Source of the DNA: an uncultured bacterium
Lineage (GTDB): Bacteria > Verrucomicrobiota > Kiritimatiellia > RFP12 > UBA1067
Length of the DNA stretch: 48,679 nucleotides
Reading direction: 5' to 3'
Assembly: GCA_902761275.1 (NCBI GenBank)
Contig: CACWJS010000026.1
Coordinates: 1-48,679, forward strand
Made by a program: the position numbers and the translations under genes. A model generated the notes under the pieces. That model saw nothing but the letters and a program-made list of their open reading frames with translations. It did no database searches and was not told the origin of the DNA. Each line of letters begins with the position of its first letter. Positions within the stretch are counted from its first letter, which is position 1. Shown in pieces: positions 34,883 to 46,475 of the stretch.

Positions 34883-34909
34883 AATTCCTCGTAATCGTGA
34901 GGCAATACA

Positions 34910-35959
34910 ATGAATAGTGGTAAGTCATCTATGTCGTTCAAGGCAGTCATTCTTGCAGGCGGGTCGGGAGAGCGGTTTTGGCCGCTCTCCACTCCCGAAC
35001 GCCCGAAACAGTTTTTGCGCGTCTTCGGCGGCGCGAGCTTGATCCGCCAGGCGGTGAGCCGGCTTGACAGCTTCGTCTCGCCCAAGGACGTCTTCGTCGT
35101 GACGGCGAAGAATCTCGTCGCGGCGACGAGAAAGGAGCTCCCCGAGATTCCTAAGTGCAATATCTTGGGTGAGCCGATGCGCCGCGATACTGGCGCCGCG
35201 GTCGCGCTTGGCGTCGGCCTTGCGGCAGGTGGTGCTGACCCTGTTGTCGGCTTCTTCTCGAGTGACCAGATGGTGGCGAACCCCAAGGCGTTTCGCAAGG
35301 TCGTCTCGAAAGCCGTTGCCCTCGCCCGCCGCAAGCCGGTCATCGTCACTCTCGGCATCAAGCCCGACTACCCGGCGACGTGCTTCGGATACATCTCGCC
35401 CAAGACGCGCACCTTCGTCGAGAAGCCCGACGCGAAGACGGCGAAGAAGTACGTCAAGGCCGGCTATCTTTGGAACGCCGGAATGTTCATCGCCCGCGCC
35501 TCGACCTTCCGCGGCGCATTTGCCGCGCACGCGCCTGAACTCGAGCGCTTGACCCGACTTGGGACGGGTGGGACGGACAGGACGGGTGGGACTCGCTCGC
35601 GCTCTGTGGTGATTACAAGCGGCAGCCTGGTCAAGTTTTATTCCGCTCTTCCAAAGATCAGCTTCGACTATGCCGTGATGGAGAAGTCGAAGAACGTCGA
35701 GGTCGTTCCCGGCGACTTTGGCTGGGACGACGTCGGCAGTTTCGCCGCGTTTGACAAGTACTTCCCGCATGACTCGCGCGGCAACGTCCGCGAAGGGCCG
35801 TGCACGGTCGTTGAGGCAGACGGCAACATCTGCGTCGCCCGCAGCGCGCGCATCTCGCTTCTCGGCGTCAAGAACCTCGTCGTCGTCACGACGCCCGATT
35901 CCGTCCTTGTCGCTGACAAATCTCGCCTCACCGACATGAAGAAGCTGTTCAAGAGGTAG
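34910..35959 (+). CDS. manC: Mannose-1-phosphate guanylyltransferase
   Basis: ManC makes GDP-mannose for surface polysaccharides. The nucleotidyltransferase signature FKAVILAGGSGERFWPLS is followed by PERPKQFLRVFG, EPMRRDTGAAVALG, FFSSDQMVAN, FVEKPDAKTAKKYV, YLWNAGMFIARAS and FDYAVMEKSKNVEVVPG. At 349 residues it is the short, GMP-only form without the isomerase domain of bifunctional ManC. An ATG at 34931 is an alternative start. Residues about 216-228 (RLGTGGTDRTGGTRSRS region) come from a 9-bp-period repeat inserted in frame. Confidence 0.93.
   Translation: MNSGKSSMSFKAVILAGGSGERFWPLSTPERPKQFLRVFGGASLIRQAVSRLDSFVSPKDVFVVTAKNLVAATRKELPEIPKCNILGEPMRRDTGAAVALGVGLAAGGADPVVGFFSSDQMVANPKAFRKVVSKAVALARRKPVIVTLGIKPDYPATCFGYISPKTRTFVEKPDAKTAKKYVKAGYLWNAGMFIARASTFRGAFAAHAPELERLTRLGTGGTDRTGGTRSRSVVITSGSLVKFYSALPKISFDYAVMEKSKNVEVVPGDFGWDDVGSFAAFDKYFPHDSRGNVREGPCTVVEADGNICVARSARISLLGVKNLVVVTTPDSVLVADKSRLTDMKKLFKR
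35559..35594. repeat. Nonamer tandem repeat inside manC
   Basis: GGAC recurs every 9 bp at 35562, 35571, 35580 and 35589 in units such as TTGGGACGG, GTGGGACGG, ACAGGACGG. It is in frame and adds a Gly/Thr/Arg loop to ManC. The same 9-bp period and GGAC core flank the gene at 44846. Confidence 0.7.
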
Positions 35960-36878: not shown

Positions 36879-36955
<77 letters not shown>

Positions 36956-36956
36956 A

Positions 36957-37017
<61 letters not shown>

Positions 37018-37035
37018 AGAAATCTGGCATGTCGT

Positions 37036-40052: not shown

Positions 40053-41498
40053 ATGATGAAACTGAAAGACTACATTGGCGAGACGACTTCGTATGATAAG
40101 AAGTTGATGCTTGAGCGCAAAGACCCGACGAGCTGGCTCAAGAGCGTAAGCGCATTTGCGAACACGCAGGGCGGCAAATTGCTGTTCGGCGTAGCAAACG
40201 ATGGTTCGTTTCAAGGGCTTGCCGATGCGCAGGGCGACTCCGAGTTCATCAGCGAGACTATCAAGATGCAGATGGATCCCGTGCCGGAAATCGACCTCAC
40301 GATCCATGAAGAGGATGACAAGCGGTTTGTGGTTGTCGACATCAAGCCCGGTTCGGAGACGCCTTACTATGTCTTTGTCAAGGGTCATCGCGACGCCTAT
40401 GTCCGCATTGGCAATGAGAGCGTGAGGGCGTCGGCAATCGAGCTGAAGCGACTTGTGCTTAAGGGATCGCATCGTTCATGGGACAGCTTGCCGTCTCAAT
40501 ACAAGTTGACCGACTTTTCGTTCGAGCTTCTGCGGGCGACATATTTTGCGAAGCGGCACAAATCGTTTGAGGATGCAAACTTCCAGTCATTCGAACTTGT
40601 GGGCGATGATGGACTGCTTTCGTATGCTGGCGCACTTCTTGCTGACGGCTCGCCTATTCGCCATTCTCGAGTCTTTTGCACGCGGTGGAAGGGATTGACC
40701 AAGGCCAACGGATTGATGGAGGCATTGGATGACCATGAATATTCCGGCGGCCTCATTTCCCTGCTGAATGCGGCTAGGTCATTTATCGTCGCTAATACAA
40801 AGATGATGTGGCGAAAGACGAACGACGGGAGGATGGAATACCCTGAGTATCCAGAACGCGCATACGAAGAGGGGCTTGTCAACGCTCTCATTCACCGCGA
40901 CTACCTTGAAATCGGGAGCGAGGTTCATATTGACATCTATGACGATCGCATGGAAATCGTGTCGCCTGGCGGCATGCCAAGTGGCAAGTGCGTACAGGAG
41001 CTTGACTTGCGCCAGGTGGCGTCAATGCGTCGCAATCCCGTGATTGCAGACCTCTTTCAGCGGCTTGACCTGATGGAACGTCGAGGTAGCGGTTTCAAGA
41101 AGATACTTGACGCATACGCCTTTGAGTCGGAGAAACGCGGCGAAACTATTATGCCACGTTTCGAATCGACTAGCACGGATTTCTTCTTGATCCTTCCAAA
41201 CTTGAACTATGGCAAGGTCATCAATGGCGTGGTGTCCTCGTCCAATGGGCAGGGCGAGGATGTCAGCACAGATGCGGGTGGGGAGAAAAGTAGGAAGAAA
41301 GGTAGGGAGAAAAGTAGGGAGAAAATAATTGCTGCACTAAAGCAGGCCCCTTATATCACCATGTCTGATCTGGCGGAATTGATAGGGATTTCAGCGAAGG
41401 GAGTTGAGAAAAACATCAAGATATTACGAGATCAGGGTTTCATTCGCCGCATCGGCCCCGACAAAGGCGGGCATTGGGAAGTAATTGAAAGGGCGTGA
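40053..41498 (+). CDS. AlbA_2 (Schlafen AAA_4-like) putative DNA-binding/ATP-binding protein
   Basis: The 481-residue protein has an N-terminal AlbA_2 domain (LERKDPTSWLKSVSAFANTQ then GGKLLFGVANDGSFQGL, near 20-55), a middle HATPase_c_4-type region (ERAYEEGLVNALIHRDYLEI, DIYDDRMEIVSPGGMPSG, MERRGSGFKKILDAY) and a C-terminal winged helix (ITMSDLAELIGISAKGVEKN). The basic linker EKSRKKGREKSREK comes from 12-bp repeats. Such proteins are common in mobile and defence regions, where they are taken for transcriptional regulators; the precise role is unknown. It could regulate the downstream helicase-DarT operon, which is conjecture. Confidence 0.85.
   Translation: MMKLKDYIGETTSYDKKLMLERKDPTSWLKSVSAFANTQGGKLLFGVANDGSFQGLADAQGDSEFISETIKMQMDPVPEIDLTIHEEDDKRFVVVDIKPGSETPYYVFVKGHRDAYVRIGNESVRASAIELKRLVLKGSHRSWDSLPSQYKLTDFSFELLRATYFAKRHKSFEDANFQSFELVGDDGLLSYAGALLADGSPIRHSRVFCTRWKGLTKANGLMEALDDHEYSGGLISLLNAARSFIVANTKMMWRKTNDGRMEYPEYPERAYEEGLVNALIHRDYLEIGSEVHIDIYDDRMEIVSPGGMPSGKCVQELDLRQVASMRRNPVIADLFQRLDLMERRGSGFKKILDAYAFESEKRGETIMPRFESTSTDFFLILPNLNYGKVINGVVSSSNGQGEDVSTDAGGEKSRKKGREKSREKIIAALKQAPYITMSDLAELIGISAKGVEKNIKILRDQGFIRRIGPDKGGHWEVIERA
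41282..41329. repeat. 12-bp tandem repeat in the AlbA_2 gene linker
   Basis: About four units of GGAGAAAAGTAG, degenerate in the second and fourth. Being a multiple of three, copy changes only alter linker length. Similar EK-rich linkers are typical of this family. Confidence 0.6.
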
Positions 41499-41732: not shown

Positions 41733-43172
41733 ATGGAACGTTATGACATATTGAGAGAACCGGAATTACATTTGAAGGGAGAGCAGAAGAAAGTGTATTG
41801 CCTTCCTTCAAACGGCCCAGTGCTCGTAAAAGGAAGTGCGGGTTCCGGCAAGACTCTTGTGGCTATTGCGCGGGCAAGATACTTACGAAACCTTGCCCAG
41901 CAAGATATGTTCACAACGAATTTGCGTATAGCATTTTTTACTTATGATAAAAGTTTGCGCGATGAAATTGCAACTTATTTCAATGACTCGAGTATATATG
42001 TCAATAACATTGATAGCTGGGTTGCAAGATTCTTGTCTAAACGATATGGCCGCAGATTGCAGGAGCCGCTAACAGATTATCAAGTCAGGAGAGAATGTAT
42101 CAGAGCGGCAAAATCTCGGACCTTTGCTAATGTGCCTCTGAGGGCAATCTCTGGTAAAGGGAATGATTTTTATTTTGATGAAATTGAATGGATCAAAAGT
42201 CGACTGATCGAATCAGAATCTGAATATGTCGAGATGCCACGAACAGGACGAGGCACCGCTGACCGCGTGACGAAAGAGGATAGGCATTTTCTTTGGAATC
42301 TAAAAGAGGCGTTTGATGCGGAACTCAAGAAGCGCAATTTGAGTTTATTTGCCGACAGAATATCATTGGCAATTAAAGAGATAGAGCGTCATCCATTAGA
42401 TGAGTCGGAATCTTTTACTCATGTCATTGTGGATGAAGCCCAAGATTTCACCTTGGCGCAGTTGCGATTGATAAGTCTCATCGCAAAAGGAGAAACATTG
42501 ACGTCAAAGAGCATTTCTCTATTTGCAGATGTTGCGCAAACGATATACGAAAGTGGATTTTCATGGAAGGATGCCAACATAACAGTTGCTGGAAGTAGAA
42601 GTTATATTTTCAATCGTAATTATAGGAATACCAGGCAGATAGCAGAAGCCGCGGCGTCATTATTGTCACATGAAGAAGACAAAGATGAGATTGTGGACAT
42701 GGCAATTCCAGAGCGAGAGGGCACGAAGCCGGTTTTGATTATTGGTGCCGCAAAGGAAGTTGCTAGAGAATTAAGCCGCCTCTTGGAGTCCGTGCCGATA
42801 AAAGAGACATGTGCCTTTGGCGTATGCACAAATGCGGAGAAGAAGGAACTTGTAAGCGCATTAGGCAAACGGTTCTTTGCGACAGACAGTCGAACAACTA
42901 CTCTGTCGGAACAAGATGGCCGTAGAGTTATACATGTCCGCACCATGCAAAAGATGAAGGGTCTTCAGTTTGACAATGTAATTCTCTGGAACATGACAGA
43001 GGGGCATTTCCCTTCGCAGTGGGATTCGGATAAGGATTTATCAAAATTGCGAAAGCTTTTATATGTTGCAATGACGAGAGCCTGTAAGAAACTTGTCATT
43101 TGTGTTTTTGGGAAACCCTCTGCATTAGTAAATGAAATCTCTTCAACCTTGCTGGAGGTTAGAAATGTGTGA
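41733..43172 (+). CDS. Compact UvrD/Rep-like SF1 helicase associated with DarT1-NADAR
   Basis: The 479-residue protein has all SF1A motifs: Walker A LVKGSAGSGKT (Lys40), DEAQDF (234-239), SLFADVAQTIYES (motif III), RNYRNTRQIAE (motif IV), VRTMQKMKGLQFDNVILWN (motif V) and LLYVAMTRACKKLVI (motif VI). It is shorter than UvrD (about 720) and lacks most accessory domain insertions. AT content is much higher than in the housekeeping genes. Its stop overlaps the darT start, with the darT ribosome binding site inside it, so the two are translated together. It may expose or remodel single-stranded DNA, the DarT substrate; that link is inference. Confidence 0.85.
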   Translation: MERYDILREPELHLKGEQKKVYCLPSNGPVLVKGSAGSGKTLVAIARARYLRNLAQQDMFTTNLRIAFFTYDKSLRDEIATYFNDSSIYVNNIDSWVARFLSKRYGRRLQEPLTDYQVRRECIRAAKSRTFANVPLRAISGKGNDFYFDEIEWIKSRLIESESEYVEMPRTGRGTADRVTKEDRHFLWNLKEAFDAELKKRNLSLFADRISLAIKEIERHPLDESESFTHVIVDEAQDFTLAQLRLISLIAKGETLTSKSISLFADVAQTIYESGFSWKDANITVAGSRSYIFNRNYRNTRQIAEAAASLLSHEEDKDEIVDMAIPEREGTKPVLIIGAAKEVARELSRLLESVPIKETCAFGVCTNAEKKELVSALGKRFFATDSRTTTLSEQDGRRVIHVRTMQKMKGLQFDNVILWNMTEGHFPSQWDSDKDLSKLRKLLYVAMTRACKKLVICVFGKPSALVNEISSTLLEVRNV

Positions 43173-43836
43173 ATCGTCACCTGACGCAAATGCAATAATG
43201 GATTTTGTCAAATGTCGAGGCATTACTCGCCTCGTGCATTTTACGCCATTTCTGAATTTATGCGGGATGTTCAATCGCGGTGGAATATGGCCAAGAGCTA
43301 AACTTGAGGACTATAACAAGGAGAATCCTGATGAAGATATGATGGCTTATATCAATTGGAATGACAAATTGCGATTAGACGGCAGGAATGATTGTATCAA
43401 TCTTTCAATACAACGAATCAACTCTTTTTTGTTTGCACGATTCAAGGACTTTCCATATGGCAAGCCGTGGTGTATATTGGAAATAAACCCTGTATGCTTG
43501 GTGCATAATGGTGTTGTCTTCACAACGGCTAATGCTGCGTCGACTTGGGTAAGACATAATGGAACACAACCAGGAATTGCAGGGTTACAGAAACTGTACG
43601 GAGATAAAATATCAGATGGAAAACGTATGCATATAAGGACAAGTGACACGCCTATTAATTGTCCGACATCAAGACAGGCAGAGGTGTTGTATCCAATGGA
43701 AATTGGGATTGAATTAATAAACGGACTGGTGTTTGAAACAAATGAGGACGCTGCGCAGGCAAGGGCAATGTTGATTACAGATTGCCCAAGCATAAAACTA
43801 CCAGAGATTAAGGTTGTTCCAAACGATTTTATTTAA
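43165..43836 (+). CDS. darT: DarT1-like DNA ADP-ribosyltransferase toxin (DUF4433)
   Basis: DarT enzymes use NAD+ to ADP-ribosylate bases in single-stranded DNA; DarT1 types modify guanosine. The 223-residue protein matches the DUF4433 pattern: RGITRLVHFTPFLNLCGMF (His25), RLDGRNDCINLSIQRINSFL, PWCILEINPVCL and FTTANAAS, then SRQAEVLYPMEI with the presumed catalytic Glu173. GGAGG lies 6 nt before the ATG at 43165, inside the helicase gene. The DarT1 rather than DarT2 assignment rests on the downstream NADAR antitoxin, since DarT2 is paired with a DarG macrodomain. The region is AT-rich, suggesting horizontal acquisition. Confidence 0.85.
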   Translation: MCESSPDANAIMDFVKCRGITRLVHFTPFLNLCGMFNRGGIWPRAKLEDYNKENPDEDMMAYINWNDKLRLDGRNDCINLSIQRINSFLFARFKDFPYGKPWCILEINPVCLVHNGVVFTTANAASTWVRHNGTQPGIAGLQKLYGDKISDGKRMHIRTSDTPINCPTSRQAEVLYPMEIGIELINGLVFETNEDAAQARAMLITDCPSIKLPEIKVVPNDFI

Positions 43837-43851
43837 AGGAAATGTGACATT

Positions 43852-44592
43852 ATGGTAACGAGACCAATTTTCATTCCTGAAATTGAACATGTTGGCGTTA
43901 GGGTTGTACAATCTCTGCCTTTTACTTGGCACCCTGGTTTTTCCATGGTGCAAAAGAAGAAAAACGTAGCAGCCTTGCATGCTTCGATAACGCAGATGGA
44001 TGCCAATCTAATACCTTTAGAGATTTCCAGTCGGTCAAATGAGCAACTCGGAATAAAATTGAGTGCGTTTAATCTTGGAGTGGAATCGAATGGAAGATTT
44101 TTTAGTGTAGAATCTGTTTATCAAGCCAGTAAAGTTTTTGAAAATGGGGTGGGTCCGTTCCCTGAATTATATGCATCAAACCCGGCAGAAGTGCGCAATT
44201 ATATAAAAACGCATGAGACCGCCGCATTGAAAATGTACCAATATGGGAACGAGATTTGGTCTTTGAATCCTACTCGGGCATTCTATGATTGGATTTACTG
44301 CCGTGCGTTGAGTAAAAATCCAAGTCTGGTTGATGGCTTGAGAGGTTACAATTGTTTTTCGGATATAGCATTTAATCCAGTAAGAGCTGTCAATTGTCAG
44401 GCATATGCTGTCGCGCTTTATTTGTCGCTTGCGAAGAATGGAGTGATAGAAGAGGCAATGTCTGGAAAAGATTTGTTTATCAAATATCATCCCAAGGATG
44501 TTGTTGAGCTGTCGGAGACCAACAATCCGCGACAGGCTACTTCTTGCAAGAAGAATCGTGTCGCACGAAATCAGCTAATGTTGAAATTGTAG
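43852..44592 (+). CDS. NADAR-type antitoxin (DarT1-associated, DNA ADP-ribosyl hydrolase)
   Basis: NADAR antitoxins remove ADP-ribose from guanosine placed there by DarT1. The 246-residue protein has an N-terminal segment typical of DarT1-linked members (TRPIFIPEIEHVGVRVVQSL), then the NADAR core: KLSAFNLGVESNGRFFSVES and VYQASKVFENGVG (Glu87, Tyr90), EIWSLNPTRAFYDWIYCRAL, and LRGYNCFSDIAFNP. AAAGGAAA lies 9 nt before the start. It follows darT by 15 nt in the same AT-rich composition. Its length and N-terminal extension fit the antitoxin subfamily better than riboflavin-pathway NADAR enzymes. Confidence 0.85.
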   Translation: MVTRPIFIPEIEHVGVRVVQSLPFTWHPGFSMVQKKKNVAALHASITQMDANLIPLEISSRSNEQLGIKLSAFNLGVESNGRFFSVESVYQASKVFENGVGPFPELYASNPAEVRNYIKTHETAALKMYQYGNEIWSLNPTRAFYDWIYCRALSKNPSLVDGLRGYNCFSDIAFNPVRAVNCQAYAVALYLSLAKNGVIEEAMSGKDLFIKYHPKDVVELSETNNPRQATSCKKNRVARNQLMLKL

Positions 44593-44694: not shown

Positions 44695-44718
44695 ACGGCT
44701 GTGATCATGAAAGAACAA

Positions 44719-44799
44719 ACAGGACATCGGGGACAACCGAGACGGACGGGACCGCTTGAGTGGCGAAAGCTGCCGGGACGACCGGGACTTGGGCGACGG
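44719..44799. repeat. Nonamer tandem repeat, left of the four-helix-bundle gene
   Basis: GGAC or a one-base variant recurs in strict 9-bp phase at 44722, 44731, 44740, 44749, 44776, 44785 and 44794, with degenerate units between. CCGAGACGGACGGGAC here recurs inverted at the right-hand repeat. Confidence 0.75.
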
Positions 44800-44845
44800 G
44801 GTTTTGTCGGGCAACGGGAACTGCCGTGGGAAGGAACGCGGGTCC

Positions 44846-45535
44846 ATGGCTGATATTCCAAAGATTGTTTTGCCGCATGGCGGCTATAAGAAGCTCATTG
44901 TCTATCGCAAGAGCGAAGTGATTTACCAGGGCACTGTCGTGTTTTGCCGCCGATTCCTTTCCGCTCACGGTGATCGCACCGTTGACCAGATGACGCAGGC
45001 CGCTCGTAGTTGCAAGCAGAACATCGCCGAAGGCAGCGCGGCGAGCGGCACGAGCAAGGAAACGGAAATCAAGCTCACCAATGTCGCCCGCGCCACGCTT
45101 GACGAGCTGATTGAGGACTACCTTGACTGGCTCAAGTCGCATGGTTTCGCAGAGTGGCCGTCAGACGACGAGCGGCGCATTGCCGCGCGCGACTATTCCA
45201 AGGCGCATTCTGACTGGCCTGATTGGCAGAAGTTCTTCGAGACGCGTCCGGCGGAAACGGTGGCGAATCTAATGCTCACTATCTGCCATCAGACGCGCTA
45301 TATGCTCGACAAGATGATCGCCGCGCAGGAGGAAGACTTCAAGAGGCATGGCGGGGTCCGCGAGCGGATGCACGCCGCTCGCACCGCCGCTCGTGGCGAA
45401 GAATGGGACAAGGGCGTGTATTCTCGGCTCGACGCCGCCACAGATGTGATGGAGCTTGAGGCCAGAGCTGCCGAGATCAAGCGCAAGGTCGATCAGGCGG
45501 TCTGGAGCATCAAGAAGCGAAAGGGCTGGAAATGA
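44846..45535 (+). CDS. Four-helix-bundle protein of the S23 rRNA-IVS type
   Basis: The 229-residue protein starts at ATG 44846 behind GGAAGGA. The first 110 residues carry the four-helix bundle pattern of the 23S rRNA intervening-sequence (S23/avd-like) family: GGYKKLIVYRKSEVIYQGTV, RTVDQMTQAARSCKQNIAEG, then SAASGTSKETEIKLTNVARA and LDELIEDYLDWL. The C-terminal half is helical, with LTICHQTRYMLDKMIAAQEE. Related Avd proteins are nucleic-acid-binding pentamers that partner reverse transcriptases in diversity-generating retroelements; no reverse transcriptase is in this window. The gene is bracketed by inverted 9-bp-period repeats. Confidence 0.85.
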   Translation: MADIPKIVLPHGGYKKLIVYRKSEVIYQGTVVFCRRFLSAHGDRTVDQMTQAARSCKQNIAEGSAASGTSKETEIKLTNVARATLDELIEDYLDWLKSHGFAEWPSDDERRIAARDYSKAHSDWPDWQKFFETRPAETVANLMLTICHQTRYMLDKMIAAQEEDFKRHGGVRERMHAARTAARGEEWDKGVYSRLDAATDVMELEARAAEIKRKVDQAVWSIKKRKGWK

Positions 45536-45563
45536 CAGGGGAGGGGGGCCAACCATGGCAACC

Positions 45564-45617
45564 AAGTCCCGGAGGTCCTGGTTGTCTCGGATGTCCCGTC
45601 CGTCTCGGATGTCCCGT
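45564..45617. repeat. Nonamer tandem repeat, right of the four-helix-bundle gene
   Basis: GTCC or GTCT recurs at 45566, 45575, 45584, 45593, 45602 and 45611, exactly every 9 bp. It is the reverse-complement orientation of the repeat at 44719. Confidence 0.8.
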
Positions 45618-45910: not shown

Positions 45911-46384
45911 ATGACGACTCAGGCGGGAAGGGAGAATGCATTTAGGCGGCTCGCAAAGTCGAAGTTCCGCTCGCGCTTTCATCTCTCCTCCGACGACCGG
46001 CAGTACATCGCCGAGAAGGGCATGGAGACGATTCGCCGTCATTGCGAGGACTTCATCCGCACTCGTCTCGCGCTTGCGACACCGCCAAACGACGGCAGGC
46101 AAACGCCGATGCGAGGCCACCCCGTATTCCTCGCCCAACACGCGTGTGCCTGCTGCTGCCGCGGCTGCATGGAGAAGTGGTGGAAGGTCCCGAAGGGAAC
46201 GCCCATCCCGCCCGCGCGACAAGCGCGAATTGTTGACTTTCTGATGGCGTGGATTGAGAAAGAGTGTGGGAGGGGTCAGGAGTCAGTAGTCAGGGGTCAG
46301 GGGTCAGTACGCAGTAGTTGGAGTTTAGAGTTGGAGTTGGAGAGTGGAGTCAGTAGTCAGGGGTCAGTACGCAGGAGTCAGTAG
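45911..46384 (+). CDS. DUF4186 family protein with a repeat-encoded tail
   Basis: The start at 45911 (MTTQAGRENAFRRLAKSKFR) precedes a complete DUF4186 domain: SRFHLSSDDRQYIAEKGMET, RHCEDFIRTRLA, PPNDGRQTPMRGHPVFLAQH and ACACCCRGCMEKWW. The function of the family is unknown. From about residue 118 (GRGQESVVRGQGSVRSS and on) the frame enters the 7-bp repeat array and ends in it, so the last 40 residues are repeat-derived and would vary with copy number. No good ribosome binding site is visible; it lies 19 nt after the TSCPD gene. Confidence 0.8.
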   Translation: MTTQAGRENAFRRLAKSKFRSRFHLSSDDRQYIAEKGMETIRRHCEDFIRTRLALATPPNDGRQTPMRGHPVFLAQHACACCCRGCMEKWWKVPKGTPIPPARQARIVDFLMAWIEKECGRGQESVVRGQGSVRSSWSLELELESGVSSQGSVRRSQ

Positions 46385-46475
46385 TTGGAGTTTAGAGTTG
46401 GAGTTGGAGAGTGGAGTCAGTAGTCAGGGGTCAGTACGCAGGAGTCAGTAGTTGGAGTTTAGAGTTGGAGAGTGG
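46264..46475. repeat. Heptamer array with a 67-bp higher-order repeat
   Basis: The array is built from 7-mers such as GGAGTCA, GTAGTCA, GGGGTCA, GTACGCA, GTAGTTG, GAGTTTA and GAGTTGG. A 67-bp unit starts at 46279, 46346 and 46413 (third copy shorter). Because 67 is not a multiple of three, each copy is read in a different frame. There are no unique spacers, so it is not a CRISPR array. Confidence 0.9.

Follow-up and report, generated by a model that had tools for sequence, protein, structure and literature searches.

RAYT proteins are HUH (Y1) transposases that form cognate protein-repeat pairs with REPs, which are short palindromes, and autonomous insertion sequences (IS) form comparable pairs with MITEs, which are characterized by inverted ends, non-autonomous copies and insertion into both intergenic DNA and genes. 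The intervening sequence (IVS) of the Coxiella burnetii 23S rRNA carries an open reading frame (ORF) of the S23 family and complementary ends (a 28-bp stem), has tandem heptamers (GACAGAT) of variable copy number just before the start codon, and is regarded as a selfish element of unclear origin (PMC4990558). Tandem, intergenic heptamers have also been described in Beggiatoaceae, Cyanobacteria and Bacteroidetes (TAACTGA; PMC4679880), and a second heptamer, GGGAATC, in Xanthomonas and Nostoc (PMC4692102). These two papers do not mention S23 genes and leave the mechanism of spreading open (PMC4679880, PMC4692102). In the open literature, exclusive of preprints and most subscription journals, we found no link between S23 genes and repeats beyond the heptamers of the Coxiella IVS.

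Here we describe an S23-type gene that lies between two arrays of a short repeat in a contig of 48,679 nucleotides from an uncultured bacterium of the Kiritimatiellia (the whole contig is hereafter called the window; Table 1). The gene and its arrays sit between protein-coding genes (NADAR and TSCPD), not in 23S rRNA. Directly upstream, at 43132-44592, are a DarT-type toxin gene and then the NADAR (DarT1-associated) antitoxin gene, and a UvrD-like helicase gene precedes this pair; the region is likely a defence island. Elsewhere in the window, the 3' part of an AlbA_2 / RecG-like regulator gene contains 3.8 copies of a 12-nt tandem repeat, GGGAGAAAAGTA (41281-41325), and a perfect 62-bp tandem duplication at 36895-37018 resembles tRNA-Met, including a CAT anticodon loop, and is possibly a duplicated partial tRNA gene.

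Table 1. Features of the S23-type locus and of the gene-less arrays in the window.
Feature	Position	Strand	Basis
Solo array in frame inside manC, 9-mer units	35560..35592	+	Congener comparison
Left arm, degenerate array, period about 9 nt, unit (G)GGAC-N5	44717..44793	+	GGAC phase; regular version in congener G078
S23-type gene with suffix domain, 229 aa	44846..45535	+	Profile search and AF2 model
S23 / four-helix-bundle domain, residues 15-89	44888..45112	+	Pfam and NCBIfam profiles
TIGR04258 suffix domain, C-terminal, residues 136-183	45251..45394	+	NCBIfam profile
Right arm, inverted array, period 9 nt	45566..45616	-	GTCC phase; complementarity to left arm
Solo array, period 7 nt, AGTCAGG / AGTTGGA units	46271..46470	+	Family flanking plain S23 genes on contig 125

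A first-pass annotation, made from the sequence alone, had called the gene S23/Avd-like, and this identity holds. The protein belongs to TIGR04258 (71.2 bits, cut-off 40) and to TIGR02436, four helix bundle protein (31.5 bits, cut-off 24), and scores just under the cut-off of Pfam PF05635 (31.3 bits, cut-off 33.8). Pfam and NCBIfam scans found no recombinase (DDE, HUH, serine or tyrosine), nuclease or reverse transcriptase (RT) domain in it. Its AlphaFold (AF2) model, with a pLDDT of 93, consists of eight helices and ranks 2gsc first among solved structures with a probability of 1.00 but a weak E value of 0.05. The Avd-like fold was confirmed at the family level, where the model of a plain S23 protein matches 2gsc (TM 0.89) and Avd 4dwl (TM 0.77), and clearly matches the S23 structure 2rld and Avd 8ub7 as well. 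Both solved S23 entries contain five chains. Among suffix-type proteins 27-91% identical to the window protein, residues Q48, R54, S55, N59, E62, E87, D91, N141, E173, R179 and R183 are invariant, and these polar positions point to a conserved site of binding or catalysis.

The first-pass annotation had also reported GGAC in 9-bp phase from 44722 to 44794 on the left of the gene, and its complement GTCC every 9 bp from 45566 to 45611 on the right. On the left, five of the six copies share one phase (44722, 44731, 44749, 44776 and 44785), but the copy at 44744 is out of phase and there is no GGAC at 44794; on the right, four of the five copies are in phase (45566, 45575, 45593 and 45611) and the one at 45598 is not. 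Neither the left nor the right phase count was ever reached in 2000 dinucleotide shuffles. The annotation's sequence common to both arms in opposite orientation is present too, as the 16-mer CCGAGACGGACGGGAC at 44737 with its complement at 45593, and the inverted match grows to 23 nt with 96% complementarity (44730-44752 / 45593-45615). The inverted left/right score is 24, against a maximum of 17 in the same number of dinucleotide shuffles. The window repeats are real and above chance. Overall lag-9 regularity of the arms is modest (left p ~0.04, right p ~0.001), and the window copy falls below the array score used for the locus surveys described below. The locus has a close counterpart in a congener, G078, where identity across the gene and its right flank is 96% and the left arm is a far more regular 9-mer array, AGGACGGACGGGACAAACGGGACGGACGGGAC. 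The window copy is a typical, if slightly degraded, example of a general pattern. Coincidence arising from chance or low sequence complexity in a GC-rich genome would fit arms that, by themselves, are only modestly regular, but every control runs against it (the shuffles, and the control pieces, flanks of other ORFs, swapped loci and tree-label shuffles given below), and we assign it a negligible probability.

Periodic arrays are associated with S23-type genes far beyond this locus. The first-pass annotation had proposed testing for periodic repeats near such genes, and they occur within 300 bp in 49-64% of flanks, compared with 4-8% in controls. In 104 S23-type loci from 58 genomes, almost all of which share a genus or order with the window genome, 300-bp flanks were periodic in 59% of cases for the suffix type (mostly 9 nt, with some periods of 7, 8 and 10) and in 64% for plain S23 (mostly 7 nt, some 8), versus 5.8% of control pieces. 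A second, cross-phylum set comprised 80 plain-S23 loci, obtained when plain S23 proteins were used to scan a collection of 84,980 species genomes, and its hosts include Bacteroidota, Bacillota, Pseudomonadota, Planctomycetota, Acidobacteriota, Chloroflexota, Nitrospirota, Cyanobacteriota and Methanophagales archaea, among others. Here 49% of flanks were periodic, with periods of 7 and 8 only, versus 4.4% of control pieces. Many of the genomes surveyed are fragmentary MAGs, and by the score used strong arrays are missing at about a third of loci. The repeats are not equally common near unrelated genes, since flanks of other ORFs were periodic in only 8% of cases, and they are oriented: plain S23 arrays typically have AG in each unit upstream and the complement CT downstream, fixed relative to the gene. 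The two sides are inverted copies of each other, with an inverted left/right arm match in 58% of cross-phylum loci compared to 2.7% for swapped loci. Suffix-type genes often have hairpin arrays on both sides, frequently as direct copies. The cross-phylum set, the shuffles and two of the controls refute a chance origin of the arrays. Within the window genome, all four other S23 matches are accompanied by short-period arrays, of 7 nt on contig 3 and contig 125 (two copies) and of 8 nt on contig 16; one of the 7-nt copies ends on the right at the contig end.

Upstream arrays are purine-rich and located a few to tens of nucleotides before the start codon, and the median array has about five units, a figure that depends on the score threshold. 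These features could point to autoregulation, in which the protein ring would bind AG-type units before its own start codon, as DNA or mRNA, the inverted downstream array would pair with them, slippage would expand the repeats and ordinary recombination would move the gene. The TRAP ring, which binds GAG/UAG repeats, offers a parallel. The median of five units sits beside the five chains of the solved S23 proteins, and heptamers upstream of start codons have been proposed as translational regulators in Beggiatoaceae (PMC4679880). However, autoregulation leaves unexplained the matched inverted arrays downstream, the precise empty sites, and the dozens of solo arrays of the same unit at unrelated genes and in coding sequence, and we consider it unlikely.

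Array period tracks the protein tree, not the host. The tree of suffix-type proteins (70 sequences) requires 10 changes of period, compared with at least 15 changes (mean 18) in 500 label shuffles, and in the plain S23 tree 7 and 8 interchange 11 times, compared with at least 12 (mean 16.4) in 500 shuffles, an association that is inflated because some tree rows are related by descent. The window genome holds 7-, 8- and 9-nt copies that differ with protein type, and because copies of different protein type within one genome differ in period, the host does not set it.

Gene and arrays are present or absent as a whole unit. The S23 element on contig 3 of the window genome, ~520 bp long, is absent from G002, G068 and G012, in which its flanks lie 12 bp apart. 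The gap that holds the contig-16 element measures only about 15-45 bp in G073, G068, G012, G063, G011 and others, and in G014, G016, G009 and G065 it is occupied by S23 elements whose proteins and arrays are different (that of G065 read by eye from its likeness to G009's). This gap, with its several S23 protein types among congeners, is an insertion hot spot. By eye, the gap in these four genomes lies between spermidine synthase and arginine/lysine decarboxylase genes. Similar differences are seen in Cyanobacteria. The interval between cas6 and cas4 of Anabaena sp. 90 contains an S23 element that has no counterpart in the 98.6% identical Dolichospermum UHCC 0315A, where a different 245-bp intergenic filler occupies the site. 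In Nostoc edaphicum an S23 element separates nrd genes that lie side by side in Calothrix NIES-4105. At the filled and empty sites examined we found no target-site duplication and no conserved terminus, and the short filler between the flanks differs between alleles. S23 copies on two Calothrix plasmids share several kb and give no exact common duplication unit, and phage records yielded no S23 with a plain-S23 query.

The empty sites that the first-pass annotation had suggested seeking in close relatives thus exist at other S23 loci (contigs 3 and 16, cas6/cas4 and nrd), but no clean one for the window copy was found among congeners, G078 having the same element. In G002 its place upstream of TSCPD is taken by a gene that by eye is PD-(D/E)XK/DUF1016-like (G002:C9 9957-11115) and whose promoter region is similar. 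In G078, the TSCPD gene that follows the orthologous element (G078:C16 16148-16358) lacks ~160 bp mid-gene, near short GGAAC direct repeats.

Arrays also occur without a gene, both within and between genes and on many contigs. Matches to the solo 7-nt array of the window number 70 in its genome, spread over about 25 contigs, and an S23 gene is found alongside them on contig 125 alone. The repeat that the annotation had noticed inside manC is likewise an array; it adds 33 bp in frame and, among close congeners, is found only in the window genome and G002. A Snf2 helicase contains an in-frame solo array of 117 bp in the window genome and of 102 bp in G034, where relatives mostly have a linker of 21-45 bp, and a TPR-like protein (G000:C9 ~34900-35800, in the window genome) has three in-frame arrays, a 9-mer, a 7-mer-like one and a palindromic 8-mer. 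By altering proteins in frame, as in manC and the Snf2 helicase, S23 elements would also be a source of coding variation. Solo arrays could spread partly through slippage and recombination.

The arrays might instead pre-exist and spread by slippage or a separate system, with S23 genes only homing into them. Suffix-type genes often lie between direct copies of a hairpin array, as though inserted between two, and solo arrays of various families fill the same gap that holds an S23 element in relatives. This order of events fits poorly with the tie between period and protein clade, with arm matching that is far higher within loci than between them, and with the best empty sites (G002, G068, G012 and G073), which have no array at all; we regard it as improbable, more so than autoregulation.

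We judge it reasonably probable that the window gene, together with its left and right arrays, belongs to a very widespread class of mobile elements, here called S23 elements, whose arrays are read by the protein and which move without an RT. At the family level, the periodic flanks, empty sites and solo arrays bear out the first-pass suggestion that gene and repeats form a small mobile or repeat-spreading unit. An S23 element would consist of a single S23-type gene (Avd fold) between arrays of a short degenerate unit, with 7- or 8-nt units inverted across the two sides in plain S23 elements, and mostly 9-nt units (some 7, 8 or 10), often in hairpin arrays on both sides, in TIGR04258 elements. 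We hypothesize that the arms, as DNA or RNA in single-stranded or folded-back form, are contacted by the protein ring at one unit per subunit, which would make each protein specific for its own arrays. Through the protein-arm complex the unit, and solo arrays in trans, could then be copied or transferred to short gaps between genes and to tolerant loops. Cutting and joining would be the work of the protein itself, perhaps through its invariant polar residues, or of the host's repair or replication machinery, and not of an RT. Solo arrays would be the non-autonomous partners of the autonomous S23 element.

The first-pass annotation had pointed to the partnership of Avd with RTs, and a retro-mobile S23 element, in which an RT in trans copies folded-back RNA into new sites, would agree with the shared Avd fold of diversity-generating retroelements, with arms that would pair in RNA, and with the 23S rRNA IVS being an RNA-level element (PMC4990558). 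The survey does not support this partnership. RVT_1 was detected in only 18 of the 58 genomes, and no RT was found in G050, which is 96% complete and has many S23-type genes, or in G012, G008, G027, G037 and G046. An RT therefore seems unnecessary, as several S23-rich, fairly complete genomes have none, and retro-mobility appears highly improbable. As an obligate partner, RT was ruled out by its absence from most genomes, though draft genomes could hide some.

More tentatively, and with less confidence than for the window locus, S23 proteins may mediate the movement of a so far undescribed class of mobile elements, with each lineage reading its own period (7, 8, 9 or 10 nt), and this class may be the source of both the 23S rRNA intervening sequences and the heptamer arrays of Cyanobacteria, Bacteroidota, Beggiatoaceae and others. 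If this is true, one of the larger uncharacterised bacterial protein families would gain a function, the origin of the 23S rRNA intervening sequence, a question that has stood for more than 25 years (PMC4990558), would be explained, and so would the spread of heptamer arrays among distant phyla, where so far "no mechanism is evident" (PMC4679880). The proposal also predicts a preferred repeat period for each protein clade.

S23 elements resemble several known systems in part. Like MITE/IS pairs, they have inverted ends, non-autonomous copies, and intergenic as well as genic insertions, but they have no transposase or visible target-site duplication, and their ends are arrays instead of a fixed sequence. 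They share the Avd fold (4dwl, 8ub7) with diversity-generating retroelements, although no RT domain was found in the genes scanned around the window locus. The orphan heptamers have the same 7-nt, tandem, intergenic form as S23 arrays; in a Balneolaceae genome TAACTGA occurs as solo copies and also as an array immediately before an S23 gene, and the S23 protein of solved structure 2gsc is from X. campestris, a species of one of the genera with GGGAATC heptamers. As with REP/RAYT systems, a single-copy gene has on its flanks repeats of a family that also occurs, gene-less, at dispersed sites, but the S23 protein has an Avd-like fold and no Y1 HUH domain, and the repeats are short-period arrays. 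The window element shares with the 23S IVS an S23-family ORF and complementary ends (23 nt, 96%). The IVS, however, resides within 23S rRNA and is excised by RNase III, whereas S23 elements occupy intergenic gaps (a motif scan of the fetched S23 loci gave no convincing 23S rRNA context) and have long arrays on both sides, periods of 7-10 nt tied to clade, and dispersed solo arrays. The class is set apart by combining REP/RAYT-like logic with 23S IVS-like anatomy while missing a defining feature of each. Against the open literature surveyed we rate it as new; taking the 23S IVS as the type specimen would make it a variant of that element.
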